From positions 186,001-250,000 of the forward strand of contig JALCQD010000001.1 of NCBI GenBank assembly GCA_022651005.1: 64,000 nucleotides of DNA. Direction: 5' to 3'. The DNA is from Bifidobacteriaceae bacterium (GTDB lineage Bacteria; Actinomycetota; Actinomycetes; Actinomycetales; Bifidobacteriaceae). The notes beneath the pieces were generated by a model. It ran no database searches. It had not been told where the DNA came from and saw nothing but the letters and a program-made list of their open reading frames with translations. The stretch's first letter is position 1. The number at the start of each line of letters is the position of its first letter. The position numbers were made by a program, and so were the translations under genes. Shown here piece after piece: positions 40,942-48,491 of this stretch.

Positions 40942-41316
40942 TCAGATCTTCTGCTGCACGTCCTCGATGGTGACGACGAGCATGCGCGTCAGCCACGGGA
41001 AACTCGCCTTCTTCGCGTCGAAATCAGGGCCCTCCTCCACGAAATGCCCCGTTCCATGCACGTGGAATCCGGCGCCGGACCCTACTGTTCCCATGACCTC
41101 TTTCGACCCGAAGGTCAACGTCACGTGATTGTCGGTGGGGAAATCTCCCTCGATGCTGTGCATGCCGGCGGCCGGGATGAACAATTGATTGTCCTTCAAT
41201 GACACGTATGACATCCATGTGTTCACTACGTGTGCCGGGTGTGCGTTGACCGTGATAATAGTCACTGGCCCTTCGTGCTTAAGCACTTCCAAAAAAGTTT
41301 CATCCAGCTGGACCAT
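40942..41316 (-). CDS. FMN-binding split-barrel protein (Desulfovibrio FMN-bp-like)
   Basis: The 124-residue protein resembles the small Desulfovibrio vulgaris FMN-binding protein. Shared features are ETFLEVLKHEGPVTI, VNTWMSYVSL, PAAGMHSIEGDF, VTLTFGSKEVMG, GSGAGFHVHG and a final W-x-x-x-x-LVVTI. It probably binds FMN non-covalently as a homodimer in the cytoplasm. ATG 41314-41316 has AGGAGG at good spacing. It is the third gene of a PAS-ApbE-FMN-bp operon, 29 bases after apbE, so it is a candidate redox partner of the flavinylated PAS protein. A general pyridoxamine-phosphate-oxidase-like label would also be correct. Confidence 0.85.
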   Translation of the reverse strand: MVQLDETFLEVLKHEGPVTIITVNAHPAHVVNTWMSYVSLKDNQLFIPAAGMHSIEGDFPTDNHVTLTFGSKEVMGTVGSGAGFHVHGTGHFVEEGPDFDAKKASFPWLTRMLVVTIEDVQQKI

Positions 41317-41345
41317 GACGGCCTCCTCTTGATTGTTTCTTATTT

Positions 41346-42284
41346 CTATGGTTTCAGAAGAGTGATGCCATCGGACACCACTCTCCCATCGGCGTATACG
41401 AATACAGCGCCGAACACTGCGGGAGCATGCGTCCATCCATCGATAGGACCACCCGCAAAGAATAGGCGCTTGGCCTCAATTTCACCGGCGATGGAATCAC
41501 GCGTGAAAACGGTGACGCCTGCGAGGTCTGTGTCTAGAGGCCTGCCCGTCCTCGGATCGAGGAGGTGATGGTATTTATGACCGTCGATTTCAAGATAACG
41601 TTCATAGATGCCGCTCGTAACAGCGGAGCACGACGGCAGAACGGCCATACCGAGATCCGTGTGACGAGAGCGCACGGGATCCTGCACGCCGATGACCCAG
41701 CGCGCATCGTCTCGTCTCGGCGACTCCCCCACAAACAGCAGGTTTCCACCGAGGTCGACTATCCCCGCAGCCACGCCATACGCCGTCCACATGTCACGAA
41801 TGCGATCGGCAATATAGCCTTTTGCAATGCCGCCAAGGTCCAACTCCATGCCGGGCTTGGTCAGCTTGACCGCGTGAGTAGCTGCGTCGAGGTCCACAGC
41901 CTCCGGCGATATCTCACCCATGCGAGCGGCAATTTCATCGTCGTGTGGCACCCGTGCGCCTGTGAAGCCGATTTTCCACAGCTTCACAAGCGGCCCTATC
42001 AGCGCGTCATATCCGAAGTTGCCGCGGCTTGCAGCGACGGCAGCCGAGATGAGCTCATACGTCGAGGTCGACACCACAACGGAGCTCTTCCCCGCCGCAT
42101 CATTGACCGCCATGACTTCAGATACCGGCCGGTTGACGGTGAGGCGATCCTCATAGTCAGCGATGAGCGCGAAGGCAGCATTGAGCGCACGATCGTCCTG
42201 TTCACCAAAAACCGTCAGTGTGATGGTGGTTCCCAGACCGTGCCGCTGCGCGCTGCGTTTCATCGCGCTGATAGTGGATGCCAT
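41346..42284 (-). CDS. FAD:protein FMN transferase (ApbE family)
   Basis: ApbE enzymes split FAD and attach FMN through a phosphoester to the last Thr/Ser of a D-x-x-[ST]-G-A-[ST] motif. Visible signatures: DLGGIAKGYIAD (residues 149-160) for flavin binding, SGIYERY (224-230), and YHHLLDPRTGRPLDTD (238-253) near the metal site. The 312-residue protein has no signal peptide or lipobox, so it should act in the cytoplasm. The ATG lies six bases after the stop of the upstream PAS gene with no ribosome binding site of its own, implying translational coupling. That upstream gene encodes four copies of a perfect target motif, the obvious substrate. Confidence 0.93.
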   Translation of the reverse strand: MASTISAMKRSAQRHGLGTTITLTVFGEQDDRALNAAFALIADYEDRLTVNRPVSEVMAVNDAAGKSSVVVSTSTYELISAAVAASRGNFGYDALIGPLVKLWKIGFTGARVPHDDEIAARMGEISPEAVDLDAATHAVKLTKPGMELDLGGIAKGYIADRIRDMWTAYGVAAGIVDLGGNLLFVGESPRRDDARWVIGVQDPVRSRHTDLGMAVLPSCSAVTSGIYERYLEIDGHKYHHLLDPRTGRPLDTDLAGVTVFTRDSIAGEIEAKRLFFAGGPIDGWTHAPAVFGAVFVYADGRVVSDGITLLKP

Positions 42285-42290
42285 TGCGAG

Positions 42291-43241
42291 TCACATACCC
42301 GTCGCAGACGCGCCAGACGTGGCATCAGGAGTGTCTGCTTCCTCTGCCGGTGCCGGCGACTGCGATTCTACTGGTACTGTGGGCGCACTCTGTGCAGGTT
42401 CAGTTGAAGGAGTTACTGAAGGAGTTTCGGAGGCGCCACTCGTGGCATCCGGCAGGGGGCTTGTGGGAGCAGCAAACGGCGACTCAGACTGAACGGTCGG
42501 CTGTGTTTCCACAGGTGGAGCTGACGGAGCAACGGGAGCGAACGGCGACGAAGCGACAGGCGTCACGGTCGACGTTGCAGCGGACGTTTCCTGGGCCGAG
42601 GGATAGTCAGTATCCGATGCACCACTCGTAGCGTCAGGGGCAAAGGGTTCTGGCTGTTCTGCAGCCGGTGCACCGAAGTTCGTTGTTGCGTCGGCAACAG
42701 GAGCGCTGTCAGCGGGCCCTGAAGTCTGCGACGCTCCGGAGGTCGCATCGACTGTTCCGGAAGCCGAAGGAGCCGCTGGGGCAGCAGACGCATTCGGAGT
42801 GTTCTCGCTCCAAGCGCCCTTCTCATAGAATCCGAGAATGTCTTCAACGCTTCCCGTGAACTCTATGGTGCCCAGGTAGGTGCCGTCCACGTCACGCAAC
42901 GCATAGTACTGGATGAGGCAACGGTGACCGTTCATGAACAGCGGCACGCGCACGACGTCCTTCGTGCCGTCTTTGAAAGCGTTGATGATGCCCATCACAT
43001 GCGGCAAAACACGTGCGGGATGGCACTGCTGCACCGTCTCCCCCACCTGGTCTACCGAGCGCTTATGCTCACGATTCGGCTTGTTGGAAAACCACGCAAA
43101 GTGATCCGTGCGGTCAATCAAGTCGAGCTCAAACGGAATGGTTGTAAAAATCTGCTGAACTTCCGTGAGGGTCAAACGGCCTGTAGGAAAGTTGATATAT
43201 ACATCCGTATTGTCTACATACGGCTTTTGTGCTGTCGTCAT
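42291..43241 (-). CDS. PAS protein with four C-terminal flavinylation motifs
   Basis: Residues about 17-137 form a PAS-like domain of the DUF438/PAS_10 type: FPTGRLTLTEVQQIF, IPFELDLIDRTDHFAWFS, the conserved Q-x-C-H-P (QQCHPARVL) and YYALRDVDGTYLGTIEFTG. Residues 150-316 are low-complexity Ala/Pro/Ser/Thr and contain exactly four DATSGAS motifs at 165-171, 203-209, 265-271 and 306-312, the last six residues from the end at most. Each fits the ApbE target consensus, so up to four covalent FMN groups are predicted. No signal peptide or membrane segment is present. AAGGAG lies seven bases before the ATG. It heads an operon with apbE and an FMN-binding protein and is divergent from an AraC gene. 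The PAS ligand is unknown. Confidence 0.88.
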   Translation of the reverse strand: MTTAQKPYVDNTDVYINFPTGRLTLTEVQQIFTTIPFELDLIDRTDHFAWFSNKPNREHKRSVDQVGETVQQCHPARVLPHVMGIINAFKDGTKDVVRVPLFMNGHRCLIQYYALRDVDGTYLGTIEFTGSVEDILGFYEKGAWSENTPNASAAPAAPSASGTVDATSGASQTSGPADSAPVADATTNFGAPAAEQPEPFAPDATSGASDTDYPSAQETSAATSTVTPVASSPFAPVAPSAPPVETQPTVQSESPFAAPTSPLPDATSGASETPSVTPSTEPAQSAPTVPVESQSPAPAEEADTPDATSGASATGM

Positions 43242-43310
43242 AGCAACACTCCTTAGTGATTCATCTCATAAAGACTTTAGTTGAATGAAGCCAAATGTTA
43301 GGGTTCTTAT
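43242..43310. promoter_or_regulatory. Divergent promoter between the AraC gene and the flavin operon
   Basis: Only 69 bases separate the two starts. On the plus strand TTTAGT (about 43276) is followed after 17 bases by TAGGGT, six bases before the AraC ATG, with no ribosome binding site: a likely leaderless promoter. Two TTAGT-containing half-sites about 24 bases apart could bind the regulator. Overlapping promoters would let it control both genes. Confidence 0.5.
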
Positions 43311-44186
43311 ATGTTCCAGGCCTTCGATGCCACCGAGCAGGTGACCTTCAGTCTCGATCCCTTCCTTTCAAAAGCCGGCAACGACGCCTCTGATATTCCT
43401 TTCGGAATTCTCCAGTGCCGCACCAACTGCCACATGCGCCTCAACGACCGTGATCTCACTCTCAAAAAGGGTGACATCGCGCTCATCAGCTCTACCGTCC
43501 CCATCACGCTGTCAGTCTTGCCAACTGATCGTCAGGATCGCCCCGCGTTTGTTGATGCGCACCTCTTTCTGCTGCCCATCACCATGAACAGCGGAATGGG
43601 GCCGAATTCACTTATTGACTCGTTAGTGCAGAACAGAAACAACGCGCACATTGTGTTTCGCCGCATCAATCACGACCTCACCAACGGATATTGCGATCAA
43701 CTTGAGCGCCTGGCAACCACCACCCCGCGTGACAATCTGCTGGACTACCAACAATCAGTTCTCGCTGGTCTGCTGCTCACCGAGCTATCTCGCTCTGATC
43801 TCGATGCCATGATGATCATCGAATCCGATTTTCCCGAAAACGATCTGCGTCGCACCCCAGCTGCCCGGCAAGAGGCCCTGATCCTCAACTACATCATGGC
43901 CAACATCTCCCATGTGAGCATGACGGCCGCCGCCGCTCACTTCGGCTACGACACGAATTACTTCTCGCGCCTGGCTCGACGCCTGTTCGGAAAGACTTTC
44001 TCCGAACAGGTGCGCTTCATCCGCATGAATCAGGCGAAGAAGCTTCTCGAACTGAGCTCCCAAAGCATCAACGGCATCGCCGCCGGACTCGGATACAGGA
44101 ACGTCGCCACCTTCGACCACAACTTCAAGGCCTTCACGGGCCTCACTCCCTCGGAATACCGAGAAAGCGCAGCCCGTGAACAGTAA
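43311..44186 (+). CDS. AraC-family transcriptional regulator
   Basis: The 291-residue protein has an N-terminal sensing half with a cupin-like opening (CHMRLNDRDLTLKKGDIALIS) and a C-terminal pair of helix-turn-helix motifs: VSMTAAAAHFGYDTNYFSRLARRLFGKTFSEQVRFIRM, split here as VSMTAAAAHFGYDTNYFSRL and ARRLFGKTFSEQVRFIRM, then INGIAAGLGYRNVATFDHNF and KAFTGLTPSEYR. It is divergent from the flavin operon and convergent with pyruvate oxidase, so either could be a target. The ATG follows a -10-like TAGGGT at six bases without a ribosome binding site, suggesting a leaderless mRNA. Effector unknown. Confidence 0.92.
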   Translation: MFQAFDATEQVTFSLDPFLSKAGNDASDIPFGILQCRTNCHMRLNDRDLTLKKGDIALISSTVPITLSVLPTDRQDRPAFVDAHLFLLPITMNSGMGPNSLIDSLVQNRNNAHIVFRRINHDLTNGYCDQLERLATTTPRDNLLDYQQSVLAGLLLTELSRSDLDAMMIIESDFPENDLRRTPAARQEALILNYIMANISHVSMTAAAAHFGYDTNYFSRLARRLFGKTFSEQVRFIRMNQAKKLLELSSQSINGIAAGLGYRNVATFDHNFKAFTGLTPSEYRESAAREQ

Positions 44187-44237: not shown

Positions 44238-45965
44238 TCAGTGCTGAGCTGCCGCAGCCTGCTTGAGGAAGTAGCTGAAGGGCTTCAGCGCCTGAGCCTG
44301 GTACTTCGTCACAAACTCCTCGATCTGCTTGGGATCCTGCCAGCTTGGGTCAAGGAACATGTGCTCCGTGGTGAGCGGCATCTCGTGCGTGAGCTTGACG
44401 TCGATCACGACGGGCTTGTCAGCTGCCGTGGTCTCCGCGTCCTTGAGCGCCGCCTCGAACTCTGCCTTCGTACGCACGGTGTAGCCCTTGGCACCCATTC
44501 CGTTGGCGACGGTTGCCCAGTCGGTATCCGGAATGTCGACTCCGGAAAGCGGCTGATGGCTGTCGTCGCGCTGCTCCGCCTCGATGTAGCCCAGCGTCTC
44601 GTTCGAGAACACGACGTTGATGACGTGCAGCTTGTACTTCATCTGCGTAAGGATCTCCTCACTCAGCATGGCGTAGCCACCGTCTCCGGACAGGCTGTAC
44701 ACATCGCGATCCGGGTACGTGACCTTGGCAGCGATGGACGCCGGCACACCGTACCCCATGGTGGCGTACTTACCGGAGGTGGTCCACAACTGGTCATCGT
44801 GCAAATCGAGCAAGCGCTCGAAGTTGATGTTGACGTTGCCCACATCAACCGCGAACACGGCGCGAGGAGACGCAACCTTGTTGAGCACGTCGAAGATCGG
44901 CTCAGGACGAACCGGCATCTGCGTGGAGTCCTTGAAGGAGTTTTGCCACGCAACCCAGTTCTTCTTGTCCTCCACAGCTGCCGTATAGAAGGCGGAAGCA
45001 GTGCGGGGTTCACCCGCAGCGATGATGGCACGAAGAGCCTTCTTGGCGTCCGCGAGCATCGGAACGTCTGCGCGACGACGCTTACCGAGCTTTGAGCTCT
45101 CAACGTCGATCTGAATGATCTTTGCCCTCGGGTTGAACAGGAAGATGGAGAACGGAACGTCGTTGCCCACCCACAGAATCAGATCTGTGGAGAAGCCAAC
45201 CTCCGCACCGGGCTTCGGAGCAACGCGGCCCGCCGATCCCAAATATGCCGGGTAGCCTTCGTAGAGAATGCCCTTGGCGAGAACTGAAGATACCAACGGC
45301 ATCTTGAACTTCTCGGAGGCCTCCTTGAGCTCTGCCACAGCGTTCTTGGCACCAACGCCGAAGTAGATCATCGGGGACTTGGCCTCAGCGATGAGAGCAG
45401 CTGCCTTGCGCACGTCCTCAGGATTTGGTTCGGGAGCGATGGGCGCAACATAGGTGTTGGCGTTGGTCTGGTAGGTGTCGTTGATTTGAGCCCAGCCCAG
45501 ATCCTTCGGAACGGTGAGCACGGCGACGCCACGCTTCTCGATGGCCTGGCTGATGGCCTCGTCAGTGAGCTTCGGAATGCTCTCCGCCGTCATGGCAGTG
45601 CGATTCCACACGGACACATCGTCAAAAATGGGTTCTTCGTCCATTGCCTGGAAGAAGTCGATATTCATGCGCTTGGTGGGAACCTGAGCGACAATTGCGA
45701 GGACAGGGACACGGTCGGTCTTCGCGTCGTACAAACCGTTGAGAAGGTGCACCGCACCCGGGCCTGCAGAGCCAAAGCACACGGCGATCTTGCCGGTGAG
45801 CTTAGCGTCCGCCGAAGCCGCCAGGGCACCCGCCTCTTCGTGACGCACCTGAATGAACTTCAACTTATCCTGCTGATTATGCAGAGCATTCATCGTCGAA
45901 TCAAAAGAACCACCAGGAAAACCATAAATATGATCGACACCCCACGATTCAATGACCTTGAGCAT
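44238..45965 (-). CDS. Pyruvate oxidase (SpxB/Pox type), N-terminus interrupted by a stop
   Basis: The enzyme converts pyruvate, phosphate and oxygen to acetyl phosphate, CO2 and hydrogen peroxide with thiamine diphosphate and FAD. GVDHIYGFPGGS, QVRHEEAGALAA (activating Glu44), GKIAVCFGSAGPGAVHLLNG, and the cofactor motif GDGG (427-430) ending FSN match lactobacillar and streptococcal oxidases rather than acetolactate synthases. The best start signal is not this ATG: ATG at 45995 has AAGGAGG seven bases upstream, but codon 3 (45987-45989) is TAA. The frame then continues KISGSDA into MLKV, and these residues align with the N-terminus of SpxB, so a substitution seems to have created the stop. 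Translation may restart at 45965. Confidence 0.85.
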   Translation of the reverse strand: MLKVIESWGVDHIYGFPGGSFDSTMNALHNQQDKLKFIQVRHEEAGALAASADAKLTGKIAVCFGSAGPGAVHLLNGLYDAKTDRVPVLAIVAQVPTKRMNIDFFQAMDEEPIFDDVSVWNRTAMTAESIPKLTDEAISQAIEKRGVAVLTVPKDLGWAQINDTYQTNANTYVAPIAPEPNPEDVRKAAALIAEAKSPMIYFGVGAKNAVAELKEASEKFKMPLVSSVLAKGILYEGYPAYLGSAGRVAPKPGAEVGFSTDLILWVGNDVPFSIFLFNPRAKIIQIDVESSKLGKRRRADVPMLADAKKALRAIIAAGEPRTASAFYTAAVEDKKNWVAWQNSFKDSTQMPVRPEPIFDVLNKVASPRAVFAVDVGNVNINFERLLDLHDDQLWTTSGKYATMGYGVPASIAAKVTYPDRDVYSLSGDGGYAMLSEEILTQMKYKLHVINVVFSNETLGYIEAEQRDDSHQPLSGVDIPDTDWATVANGMGAKGYTVRTKAEFEAALKDAETTAADKPVVIDVKLTHEMPLTTEHMFLDPSWQDPKQIEEFVTKYQAQALKPFSYFLKQAAAAQH

Positions 45966-45986: not shown

Positions 45987-45995
45987 TTAGACCAT
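45987..45995 (-). promoter_or_regulatory. Two-codon minigene (ATG-GTC-TAA) at the pyruvate oxidase start
   Basis: AAGGAGG at about 46003-46009 with seven-base spacing should load ribosomes on the ATG at 45993-45995, which ends after one further codon. The stop is in frame with pyruvate oxidase, 21 bases before its next ATG. Expression would need reinitiation, readthrough or a reversion. Confidence 0.75.
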
Positions 45996-46324: not shown

Positions 46325-47425
46325 TCACTTCTCTGCGTTCCCACACTGAGACACCGAGGCGGCAACGTCTTTCTTCATCTGCCCCACGAGCTCGTCCACG
46401 GAAGCGAACTTCATCTGACCCCGCAACCGATCTATGAATTCAACACGAATGTGATGACCGTAAATGTCGATCCACTCGTCCGTGACGGCGTTCGCCTCGA
46501 GAAGCCGCGTCTGTTTGCCAATCTGGTCCTCGAACGTTTCCTTGGTTCCAATGGAGATGGCGCTGGGATAGCGATGCACCTCGGTCCCCTGCTCGTCGCA
46601 GTCCACAAGCCATCCGGAATACACACCATCCGCGGGCATGAATCCTTCGATGGAGCCACCGAGATTCGCCGTGGGATACCCCAGGGTGCGCCCGCGCTGC
46701 TCTCCGTGAACAACTGTGCCCTCCATGATGTGAGGACGTCCGAGAATGCTGGCAACCTGTTTCACGTCGCCCAGTTCCAGAAGATGACGAATGTTGGAGG
46801 AACTCCAGATGCGCACCTGCTTGGTGACCTCGATAGTTCCACCCTTGCCATCCGGAATGGTCCCGTTGGGAATGTGCGTGAAACCGGGGCCACGATCATC
46901 CACCACGTCAAGTTCGAACATGCGCGTGGCCTGGGCGAGACGATCTATGGCCTCTACATCGCCTTTGAGTCCCTTGCCCATGCGTGCATCGGCGCCGAGC
47001 ACCAACGTACGCATGCCAAGCTTTGCCGTGAGTTGCCCTAGGAAGAACATGTATGACTGCGCGCCGAACGCCAACGTGTAGTGCACCACAATGAGATGCT
47101 CGATGCCGAGCTCCTCGATCCACTGAGTGCGCTGAGAGACTCCAGAAATCACTTCGTCGTCGAGCGCCGCATCGTCATCGGTAATTTCTGCCCCACTGTG
47201 TGCAGCAGCATAACTATGGACGAGCGCCGGGCGAGGATCAAAGAGAATGGCGACCGAAAGAGCCCCATAGCTTTTCGCGAGATCCACGGTGCGCTTCAGC
47301 ACGGAACGGTGTCCCAGATGCACACCGTCGAATGTTCCGACGGTGATGACGGAGCGCTGCTTGATGCGCAGCGTAGGCCACGTCACAACGCCTTTTTCGT
47401 CTGGGGTCACGGTGTAAATCTTCAT
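46325..47425 (-). CDS. ribF: Bifunctional riboflavin kinase / FAD synthetase
   Basis: RibF converts riboflavin to FMN and FAD. The nucleotidyl-transferase domain starts with VITVGTFDGVHLGHRSVLKR; the riboflavin kinase domain includes MEGTVVHGEQRGRTLGYPTANL and YSGWL. I chose the ATG at 47423-47425 (MKIYTVTP), with AGAGG upstream, seven bases after truB; a longer frame starting at 47452 would overlap truB. The protein has 366 residues. It supplies FAD, the substrate of the ApbE enzyme encoded nearby. Confidence 0.95.
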   Translation of the reverse strand: MKIYTVTPDEKGVVTWPTLRIKQRSVITVGTFDGVHLGHRSVLKRTVDLAKSYGALSVAILFDPRPALVHSYAAAHSGAEITDDDAALDDEVISGVSQRTQWIEELGIEHLIVVHYTLAFGAQSYMFFLGQLTAKLGMRTLVLGADARMGKGLKGDVEAIDRLAQATRMFELDVVDDRGPGFTHIPNGTIPDGKGGTIEVTKQVRIWSSSNIRHLLELGDVKQVASILGRPHIMEGTVVHGEQRGRTLGYPTANLGGSIEGFMPADGVYSGWLVDCDEQGTEVHRYPSAISIGTKETFEDQIGKQTRLLEANAVTDEWIDIYGHHIRVEFIDRLRGQMKFASVDELVGQMKKDVAASVSQCGNAEK

Positions 47426-47432
47426 CTGCCTC

Positions 47433-48491
47433 TTACCTCTTGGAATCATCACTACGAGTGTCTCGCGGGAAAACGGCTATGGGATGCGCTGTTCCTCTCA
47501 TGCTGCCAGGCTCAACGATAGCGCAGAGGCGAGGAGCCGAATGCGCGGAGCGGAAAATGGCTGCCGTGGGTGCAGCCACAGTAGCGTCGATGTCCCGACC
47601 GAAGCCGATTTCGCGCAGCTGCGCCTCGTCGATATCCACAACGGGTAACACCTCTCCGATGACCTCGGTGACATCGCGGGCAGCCTTTGCCACATCTTCG
47701 GCGTCGATATTCGCCTTCAAGCGATGCTGGACCACTCCTTGACGGTCAGTGAAAGTCTTGACTTTCGTTGCCGCCACAGTTGCCGACTCCACGGTGAAAG
47801 CGCCGATACGGGTTCTGCGCAAATAGGTCAGATAGCCGCCTACTTCGAGAAGGGCACCCAGATCACGCGCAAGGGCGCGAATGTAGGTTCCCGCCGAACA
47901 CGTCACGGAAACCGTCACCTCGAGATAATGGGCGTCCGTTTCTGAATCCGTCACAGCGCGCACATCGTTACGGGTGAAGTCGGATATCGTGATTTTTCGA
48001 GCGGCAAGCTGCACATCCTTGCCCTCCCGCGCCAAGTCGTAGGCACGTTCCCCGTTCACCTTGATGGCGGAGAATGTGCTGGGAATCTGGTCGATGGTGC
48101 CTGTCAGGTGATCTGCTATTGCGGCATCTATGGGAGTCGGATCCGAGCTCAAGGCATCGATGCGAGCCGCAGCCGCCTCGGTCTGAGGACCCGCGATATC
48201 TCCCTCGGCATCATCTGTAGAAGTGGAGGCACCCAAGCGAATGACGGCCTCATACGTTTTCGACGTGCCCACAACGTATTTCAACAGGCGCGTGGCGCTC
48301 CCGAATCCGATGACCAACAGTCCTGTGGCCATGGGATCAAGCGTGCCAGCGTGCCCAACGTGGCGCGTGTGAAGGACGCCTCTGCACGCCGCAACAATGT
48401 CGTGACTCGTGACGCCCTTAGGCTTGTCAACCAAAAGAAAACCGGCCGATGGAAGCCGGTTTTCCTCATTCACAGAATCGTAGTCATTCAC
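47433..48491 (-). CDS. truB: tRNA pseudouridine(55) synthase
   Basis: TruB makes pseudouridine 55 in the T-arm of tRNA. The catalytic Asp lies in HVGHAGTLDPMATGLLVI; LLVDKPKGVTSHD at the start and AGTYIRALARDLG are typical. The 352-residue length includes a PUA-like C-terminal region. The start overlaps the rbfA stop by four bases. Confidence 0.96.
   Translation of the reverse strand: MNDYDSVNEENRLPSAGFLLVDKPKGVTSHDIVAACRGVLHTRHVGHAGTLDPMATGLLVIGFGSATRLLKYVVGTSKTYEAVIRLGASTSTDDAEGDIAGPQTEAAAARIDALSSDPTPIDAAIADHLTGTIDQIPSTFSAIKVNGERAYDLAREGKDVQLAARKITISDFTRNDVRAVTDSETDAHYLEVTVSVTCSAGTYIRALARDLGALLEVGGYLTYLRRTRIGAFTVESATVAATKVKTFTDRQGVVQHRLKANIDAEDVAKAARDVTEVIGEVLPVVDIDEAQLREIGFGRDIDATVAAPTAAIFRSAHSAPRLCAIVEPGSMRGTAHPIAVFPRDTRSDDSKR

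Follow-up and report, generated by a model that had tools for sequence, protein, structure and literature searches.

ApbE-dependent flavinylation is mainly viewed as a safeguard outside the cytosol that keeps flavins from being lost. A minimal motif of seven residues, D-x-x-[S/T]-G-A-[S/T], suffices for ApbE, which attaches FMN to the last Ser/Thr (PMC12052999). Multi-flavinylated proteins hold several covalent FMNs each and have been proposed as carriers; they contain two or more FMN-binding domains, and the survey covered them as extracytosolic proteins (Meheust et al. 2021, PMC8238504; PMC10339131). The ApbE-dependent fumarate reductase of K. pneumoniae is cytosolic (PMC12052999), and HcrAB of L. 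plantarum, for which no flavinylation was reported, is a relative in layout (PMC10295242). In Lactococcus, FMN_red proteins with C-terminal tags were found experimentally to be flavinylated by ApbE (Huang et al. 2024, PMC11334425); the main text of that study does not mention PAS domains.

Here, we analysed a stretch of 64,000 nucleotides (the window) from a host in a small Bifidobacteriaceae genus (3 of 189 family genomes) that is apparently not Bifidobacterium itself. The window encodes P0001, a PAS domain joined to a tail with four ApbE motifs, hereafter a PAS-tag protein. P0001 resembles the flavinylated Lactococcus proteins in its linear ApbE motifs, unstructured C-terminal extension, cognate ApbE and lack of FMN_bind, and differs from them in having PAS_10 instead of FMN_red, four tags and a tie to pyruvate oxidase (POX). 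Several covalent FMNs per protein would also be common to P0001, where the sites are predicted, and the multi-flavinylated proteins, but P0001 has neither FMN_bind nor a signal peptide and, like the K. pneumoniae fumarate reductase, appears cytosolic.

A PAS protein with four predicted flavinylation sites and its ApbE

The PAS-tag gene (42291-43241, minus strand; 316 aa) is followed on the same strand by genes for ApbE, a FAD:protein FMN transferase of 312 aa (PF02424; 41346-42284), and for a PNPOx-like FMN-binding protein of 124 aa (40942-41316). The gaps of 6 and 29 bases given in the preliminary description were confirmed on the coordinates, as were the ribosome binding sites 5' of the PAS-tag gene (AAGGAG) and of the FMN-binding gene (GAGGAGG); no clear ribosome binding site was present upstream of the ApbE gene. 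The divergent regulator was likewise confirmed as an AraC-family protein (HTH_18; 43311-44186, plus strand), separated from the PAS-tag gene by an intergenic region of 69 bases (43242-43310). A consensus promoter/terminator scan, whose output was at shuffle level, detected no terminator-like site on the minus strand inside the three-gene operon, and the GC content of the cluster showed no clear departure.

PAS_10 (PF13596) was the sole domain found in P0001, at residues 29-128 (42858-43157, minus strand; E = 2.1e-15); an FMN_red domain was absent, and FMN_bind (PF04205) had no match in P0001 or elsewhere in the window genome. AlphaFold predicted a confident PAS fold at about residues 15-140, for which the nearest solved folds were two uncharacterised PAS_10 proteins (2qkp, 3cax), and a disordered tail mostly below a pLDDT of 50. 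The tail comprises 171 residues, is acidic (net charge -20) and rich in Pro, Ala, Ser and Thr. It contains four DATSGAS sites on the minus strand, at residues 165-171 (42729-42749), 203-209 (42615-42635), 265-271 (42429-42449) and 306-312 (42306-42326), with FMN predicted on Ser171, Ser209, Ser271 and Ser312, respectively. All four fit the ApbE consensus exactly. Four consensus sites occurred in 0 of 200,000 tail shuffles, with a maximum of 2 per shuffle, which rules out an origin by chance or low complexity. Moreover, the copies are encoded by differing codons, so that the tags are not a recent DNA repeat; together with the shuffles, this makes selection at the protein level likely. In the tails of relatives, the tag residues were among the few nearly invariant columns.

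Based on hydropathy, none of the PAS-tag, ApbE and FMN-binding proteins has a hydrophobic signal segment, and an extracytosolic carrier was rejected on these grounds. Assignment as an ordinary DUF438 protein was also rejected, given that the DUF438-type relatives (L051-L087) are without tags. By analogy with the established biochemistry of ApbE on the tagged FMN_red proteins of Lactococcus (PMC11334425), the PAS-tag protein is very likely to carry covalent FMN attached by ApbE.

The ApbE gene product matched PF02424 with E = 1.7e-65 (221.6 bits, cut-off 25.6) and was the single ApbE match in the window genome, encoded directly after the PAS-tag gene. Since this genome encodes no FMN_bind protein, the only candidates found in it for an ApbE substrate are PAS-tag proteins. 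In an alignment to FmnB (7esa), the catalytic residues corresponding to S257 and H273 were kept and the catalytic Asp (D301) was replaced by Glu, as in most lactobacillar ApbE homologs of the clade, with L014 as an exception. The same Glu is found in the ApbE of L049, a Streptococcaceae locus with a tagged FMN_red, so we would expect the window enzyme to be active despite it. The window ApbE is likely the maturation enzyme of the PAS-tag protein.

Distribution and gene arrangements of PAS-tag proteins

As a single-sequence query of genome contigs P0001 gave no match, whereas an alignment of the PAS domain retrieved 42 close loci (L009-L050), nearly all from Lactobacillaceae, of which 397 genomes were searched and their neighbourhoods compared. 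Identity outside the genus of the window reached 76%. Among 189 Bifidobacteriaceae genomes, standalone PAS-tag genes were confined to the window genome and L009 of the same genus, none was found in 346 further genomes sampled from the order, and plasmid records yielded distant PAS relatives only. The rarity of PAS-tag genes in both order and family favours import from lactobacilli, as judged from these sequence searches. The POX tree points in neither direction of transfer, as the bifidobacterial pair branches beside and not inside the PAS-linked POX of Lacticaseibacillus.

The loci showed several arrangements. In arrangement A, POX is accompanied by a PAS-tag gene (4-7 tags) and ApbE, often with a short FAD synthetase and often with an opposed AraC gene; the window locus is of this kind with the FMN-binding protein added. 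Arrangement B consists of a PAS-tag gene followed by a lactate-oxidase-like gene, and arrangement C, typical of Limosilactobacillus, of FMN_red, FMN_red-PAS-tag and ApbE. Arrangement C also occurs in the window genome, which lacks a second ApbE (L008; L148 = G000:C1:508931). Its FMN_red-PAS-tag paralog carries the tags DATSGAS and DATSSAS on a protein whose PAS domain is 66% identical, and combines the FMN_red domain and C-terminal motif of the flavinylated proteins of Huang et al. 2024. In arrangement D, FMN_red, PAS-tags, FMN_bind and FAD_binding_2 form one chain of about 1020 residues (for example L012:9434-12502, also L014). This combination of FMN_red, FMN_bind and FAD_binding_2 is comparable to the K. 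pneumoniae fumarate reductase and HcrAB, but those enzymes reduce C=C substrates and the PAS-linked enzymes oxidise pyruvate and lactate. In arrangement E, FMN_red bears 5-9 tags and a PAS protein without tags is encoded separately after it (L119, L120, L123), a layout implying that PAS and tags belong together even as separate proteins. Arrangement F has a PAS protein with 1-4 tags among unrelated genes, and many PAS-tag genes of other lactobacilli were not near POX or lactate oxidase (LOX).

L120:51-1232 and L123 have nine tags on FMN_red in a near-periodic tail, and L009:5706-7415 encodes a duplicated PAS-tag protein of 569 aa with two PAS domains and seven tags. In L151 and L152, an untagged PAS gene overlaps by 4 bases a putative pyruvate:ferredoxin oxidoreductase gene (named by eye), and a flavodoxin-like gene adjoins the pair; this would be a further pyruvate enzyme neighbouring the PAS family.

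PAS-tag genes accompany one clade of pyruvate oxidases

The partnership of the PAS-tag protein with one POX clade is well supported. The window POX (44238-45965, minus strand; 575 aa counted from an internal ATG) lies beyond the AraC gene and matched the SpxB/POX model TIGR02720 with 859.5 bits, far over the cut-off of 637.85, yet it belongs to a separate clade that had a PAS-tag gene in every sampled case. This clade was set apart from other POX in a tree with a support of 1.0, and a few residues were diagnostic of it. A PAS-tag gene stood beside a member of it in 13 genomes from two phyla (ten Lacticaseibacillus, L094 and two bifidobacterial), which include gut and dairy bacteria. The 30 Lacticaseibacillus genomes contain two POX classes. 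The class about 70-75% identical to the window POX was present in 10 of them, with a PAS-tag gene adjacent in 10/10 (L010, L011/L128, L016, L018, L025, L033, L038, L042, L045 and L050/L207); the usual class, about 50-55% identical, occurs in most of the 30, including most of the PAS-linked ten. At 18 sampled loci of other POX, five from Bifidobacteriaceae and several from the same genomes as a PAS-linked POX, neither PAS-tag (checked within about 4 kb) nor ApbE nor FAD synthetase was found nearby. The species compared are kin and these counts are not independent, so the same gene order across phyla is the stronger argument: POX, opposed AraC, PAS-tag and ApbE follow each other in the window and L009 and, in another phylum, in L025, L038, L042 and L045.

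PAS-tag/POX loci usually also contained ApbE, together with an AraC regulator, a stand-alone FAD synthetase or both. In several lactobacilli the short gene between POX and PAS-tag encodes FAD_syn only, with no flavokinase, which fits a need for FAD of both ApbE and POX. The gene adjoining the window POX is RibF-like (riboflavin kinase/FAD synthetase; 46325-47452, minus strand), matches a RibF query and is probably a housekeeping gene. The conserved unit is POX, PAS-tag and ApbE, with FAD synthetase and/or AraC, joined by a lactate-oxidase-like gene where a second PAS-tag copy is present. In the preliminary description, pyruvate oxidase appeared only as one possible electron source for an assay; the neighbourhoods place it within the unit.

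The POX frame of the window contains a TAA at codon 3 (45987-45989, minus strand; ATG at 45995-45993), just after a good ribosome binding site, where the close relative L009 has CAA; the proteins are otherwise 94% identical. Translation may restart at the ATG of codon 12, which has no clear ribosome binding site, or the enzyme may be lost in this strain, so that the POX partner may be weakly made or missing in the window genome. In Lacticaseibacillus camelliae (L050/L207), the PAS-tag, AraC and ApbE frames of the record are broken and the POX frame is intact. Most lactobacillar PAS-linked POX (L010, L016, L018, L025, L033, L038, L042, L045) end in a Lys-rich C-terminus that was absent from the other POX sampled, from the bifidobacterial PAS-linked POX and from L094; docking of this tail to the oppositely charged acidic PAS tail is possible.

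In five species, a second PAS-tag copy lies directly upstream of a lactate-oxidase-like FMN_dh gene, and one array reads PAS-tag, LOX, POX, FAD synthetase, PAS-tag. The encoded protein scored 368.1 bits against TIGR02708, below the L-lactate oxidase cut-off of 645.5, yet matched FMN_dh strongly and had lactate oxidases as its nearest PDB structures; we therefore call it lactate-oxidase-like.

The FMN-binding protein and the AraC-family regulator

The likeness of the third gene product to the D. vulgaris FMN-binding protein, noted earlier from short motifs, held over residues 4-122 (3vy5, E = 1.5e-25; 1axj/1flm, 3e-25). The homology to the protein of Desulfovibrio vulgaris Miyazaki F (1axj/1flm) is full-length, but host and regulatory context differ. 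Adjacency of this gene to PAS-tag and ApbE was restricted to the window and L009, and in L094 (Lactobacillaceae) it lies a few genes downstream. In Lacticaseibacillus, the FMN-binding protein was encoded in 10/10 PAS-tag genomes (nine with POX-linked copies and G525 with the FMN_red fusion only) versus 2/20 others (Fisher 2.2e-6, with kinship ignored). It was missing from most genomes with the FMN_red-PAS-tag, ApbE arrangement.

The window AraC protein is 47-75% identical, over most of its length, to a Lactobacillaceae subfamily linked to PAS-tag or FMN-binding genes; the next AraC protein in the set, outside the subfamily, showed 32% identity over 98 aa. In L176, L177, L179 and L180, the FMN-binding gene is divergent from an AraC gene with 48-50% full-length identity to that of the window. 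In the genomes compared, the subfamily was located at the PAS-tag locus or the FMN-binding protein locus, never at both (in G189 and G468 at neither), and it is missing at the PAS loci L010, L011, L016, L018 and L033. This distribution suggests one regulator for both proteins, which in the window share one operon. Inspection by eye gave no clear DNA motif shared between AraC and its divergent partners. The FMN-binding protein is part of the same regulatory and phyletic group as PAS-tag and ApbE.

The preliminary description had treated the PAS-tag, ApbE and FMN-binding genes as one redox unit. What stands is a PAS-tag protein that is likely a multi-FMN substrate of ApbE, an ApbE that likely matures it, and an FMN-binding protein that co-occurs with them and shares the AraC subfamily. 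As a conserved unit the trio did not hold up, since its genes are rarely neighbours: they adjoin only in the window and in L009, with L094 as a looser case.

Discussion

On balance, we lean towards the PAS-tag protein being a soluble cytosolic multi-FMN electron relay for a specialised POX and, in some lactobacilli, also for a lactate-oxidase-like enzyme. ApbE would draw on FAD supplied by the neighbouring FAD synthetase or by RibF and link FMN through a phosphoester to the final serine of each DATSGAS, which would place about four FMNs on the flexible acidic tail. The PAS domain would dock this tail to partner flavoenzymes. The tethered FMNs would take up electrons from the FAD of POX and, in species that have it, from the lactate-oxidase-like enzyme. 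Their next acceptor would be the FMN-binding protein, O2 or, on the NAD(P)H side, the FMN_red-PAS-tag paralog, and the AraC-family regulator would coordinate the gene set. Here we infer docking by the PAS domain as well as electron transfer and its direction. In arrangement D, the PAS-tags have an NAD(P)H flavin reductase on one side and an FMN_bind-FAD reductase on the other, and a relay of electrons is therefore the most likely role of the module. Against a relay stands that pyruvate oxidases of the SpxB/POX family normally pass electrons directly to O2; the early stop in the window POX, the Glu at the catalytic Asp position of ApbE and the many PAS-tag genes distant from POX and LOX also count against it. 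A further step, which we put forward only tentatively and doubt somewhat, is that the PAS-linked POX clade, with its lactate-oxidase-like partner in some species, no longer mainly uses O2 and hands its electrons to the cytosolic multi-FMN PAS protein. If true, lactate and pyruvate would yield acetyl-phosphate without stoichiometric H2O2, and electrons would reach NAD(P) or other flavoenzymes via FMN_red-PAS and the FMN-binding protein.

The PAS flavins could instead sense redox state or O2 and tune AraC or POX without carrying flux. The structural matches of the PAS fold include the flavin and heme sensors NifL, LOV and Aer2, and an AraC gene adjoins many PAS-tag loci; however, an output domain is absent, a sensor would hardly need 4 to 9 flavin sites on a disordered tail, AraC is missing at the loci named above, and L012 holds the module within an oxidoreductase chain. 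We regard sensing as unlikely. A reading in which the PAS-tag and FMN-binding proteins form an obligate redox pair and pyruvate oxidase is a bystander seems quite unlikely to us: their common operon in the window and L009, their co-occurrence in Lacticaseibacillus and the shared AraC subfamily speak for such a pair, but adjacency is confined to the genus of the window and loose in L094, most genomes of the Limosilactobacillus type lack the FMN-binding protein, and the linkage to POX is far tighter.

Free reduced flavins react quickly with O2, and the tail could thus be a flavin brush in which tethered FMNH2 and O2 give H2O2, so that POX and LOX are reoxidised faster under aeration. In L. rhamnosus, aeration induces Pox, LctO and a PNPOx-type flavoprotein together, though these are possibly other paralogs (PMC9963975). 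Such an electron sink is nevertheless improbable, as POX and LOX reduce O2 on their own and the FMN_red fusions indicate specific flavoprotein partners. A flavin store or chaperone supplying FMN or FAD to POX and LOX, to which the adjacent FAD synthetase and the flavoenzyme nature of both would point, can practically be set aside, since attachment by ApbE is reported to be irreversible (PMC12052999) and ordinary POX paralogs manage without a PAS-tag.

We return to the relay. In a literature search mainly of open-access journals, we found no description of a PAS domain combined with ApbE, of ApbE in Bifidobacterium, or of a flavinylated partner of POX or LOX; provisionally, we take a PAS-based ApbE substrate with several sites, located in the cytosol and serving a POX clade, to be undescribed. 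Surveys based on FMN_bind would overlook this PAS-type class of ApbE substrates. A cytosolic PAS-tag protein with several sites and a link to pyruvate and lactate oxidases is at odds with the flavin-loss rationale and suggests that flavin tails serve electron transfer itself. For one branch of pyruvate oxidases, the PAS-tag protein is a candidate for the natural acceptor, which bears on the H2O2 output and the acetate/ATP yield of lactic acid bacteria.
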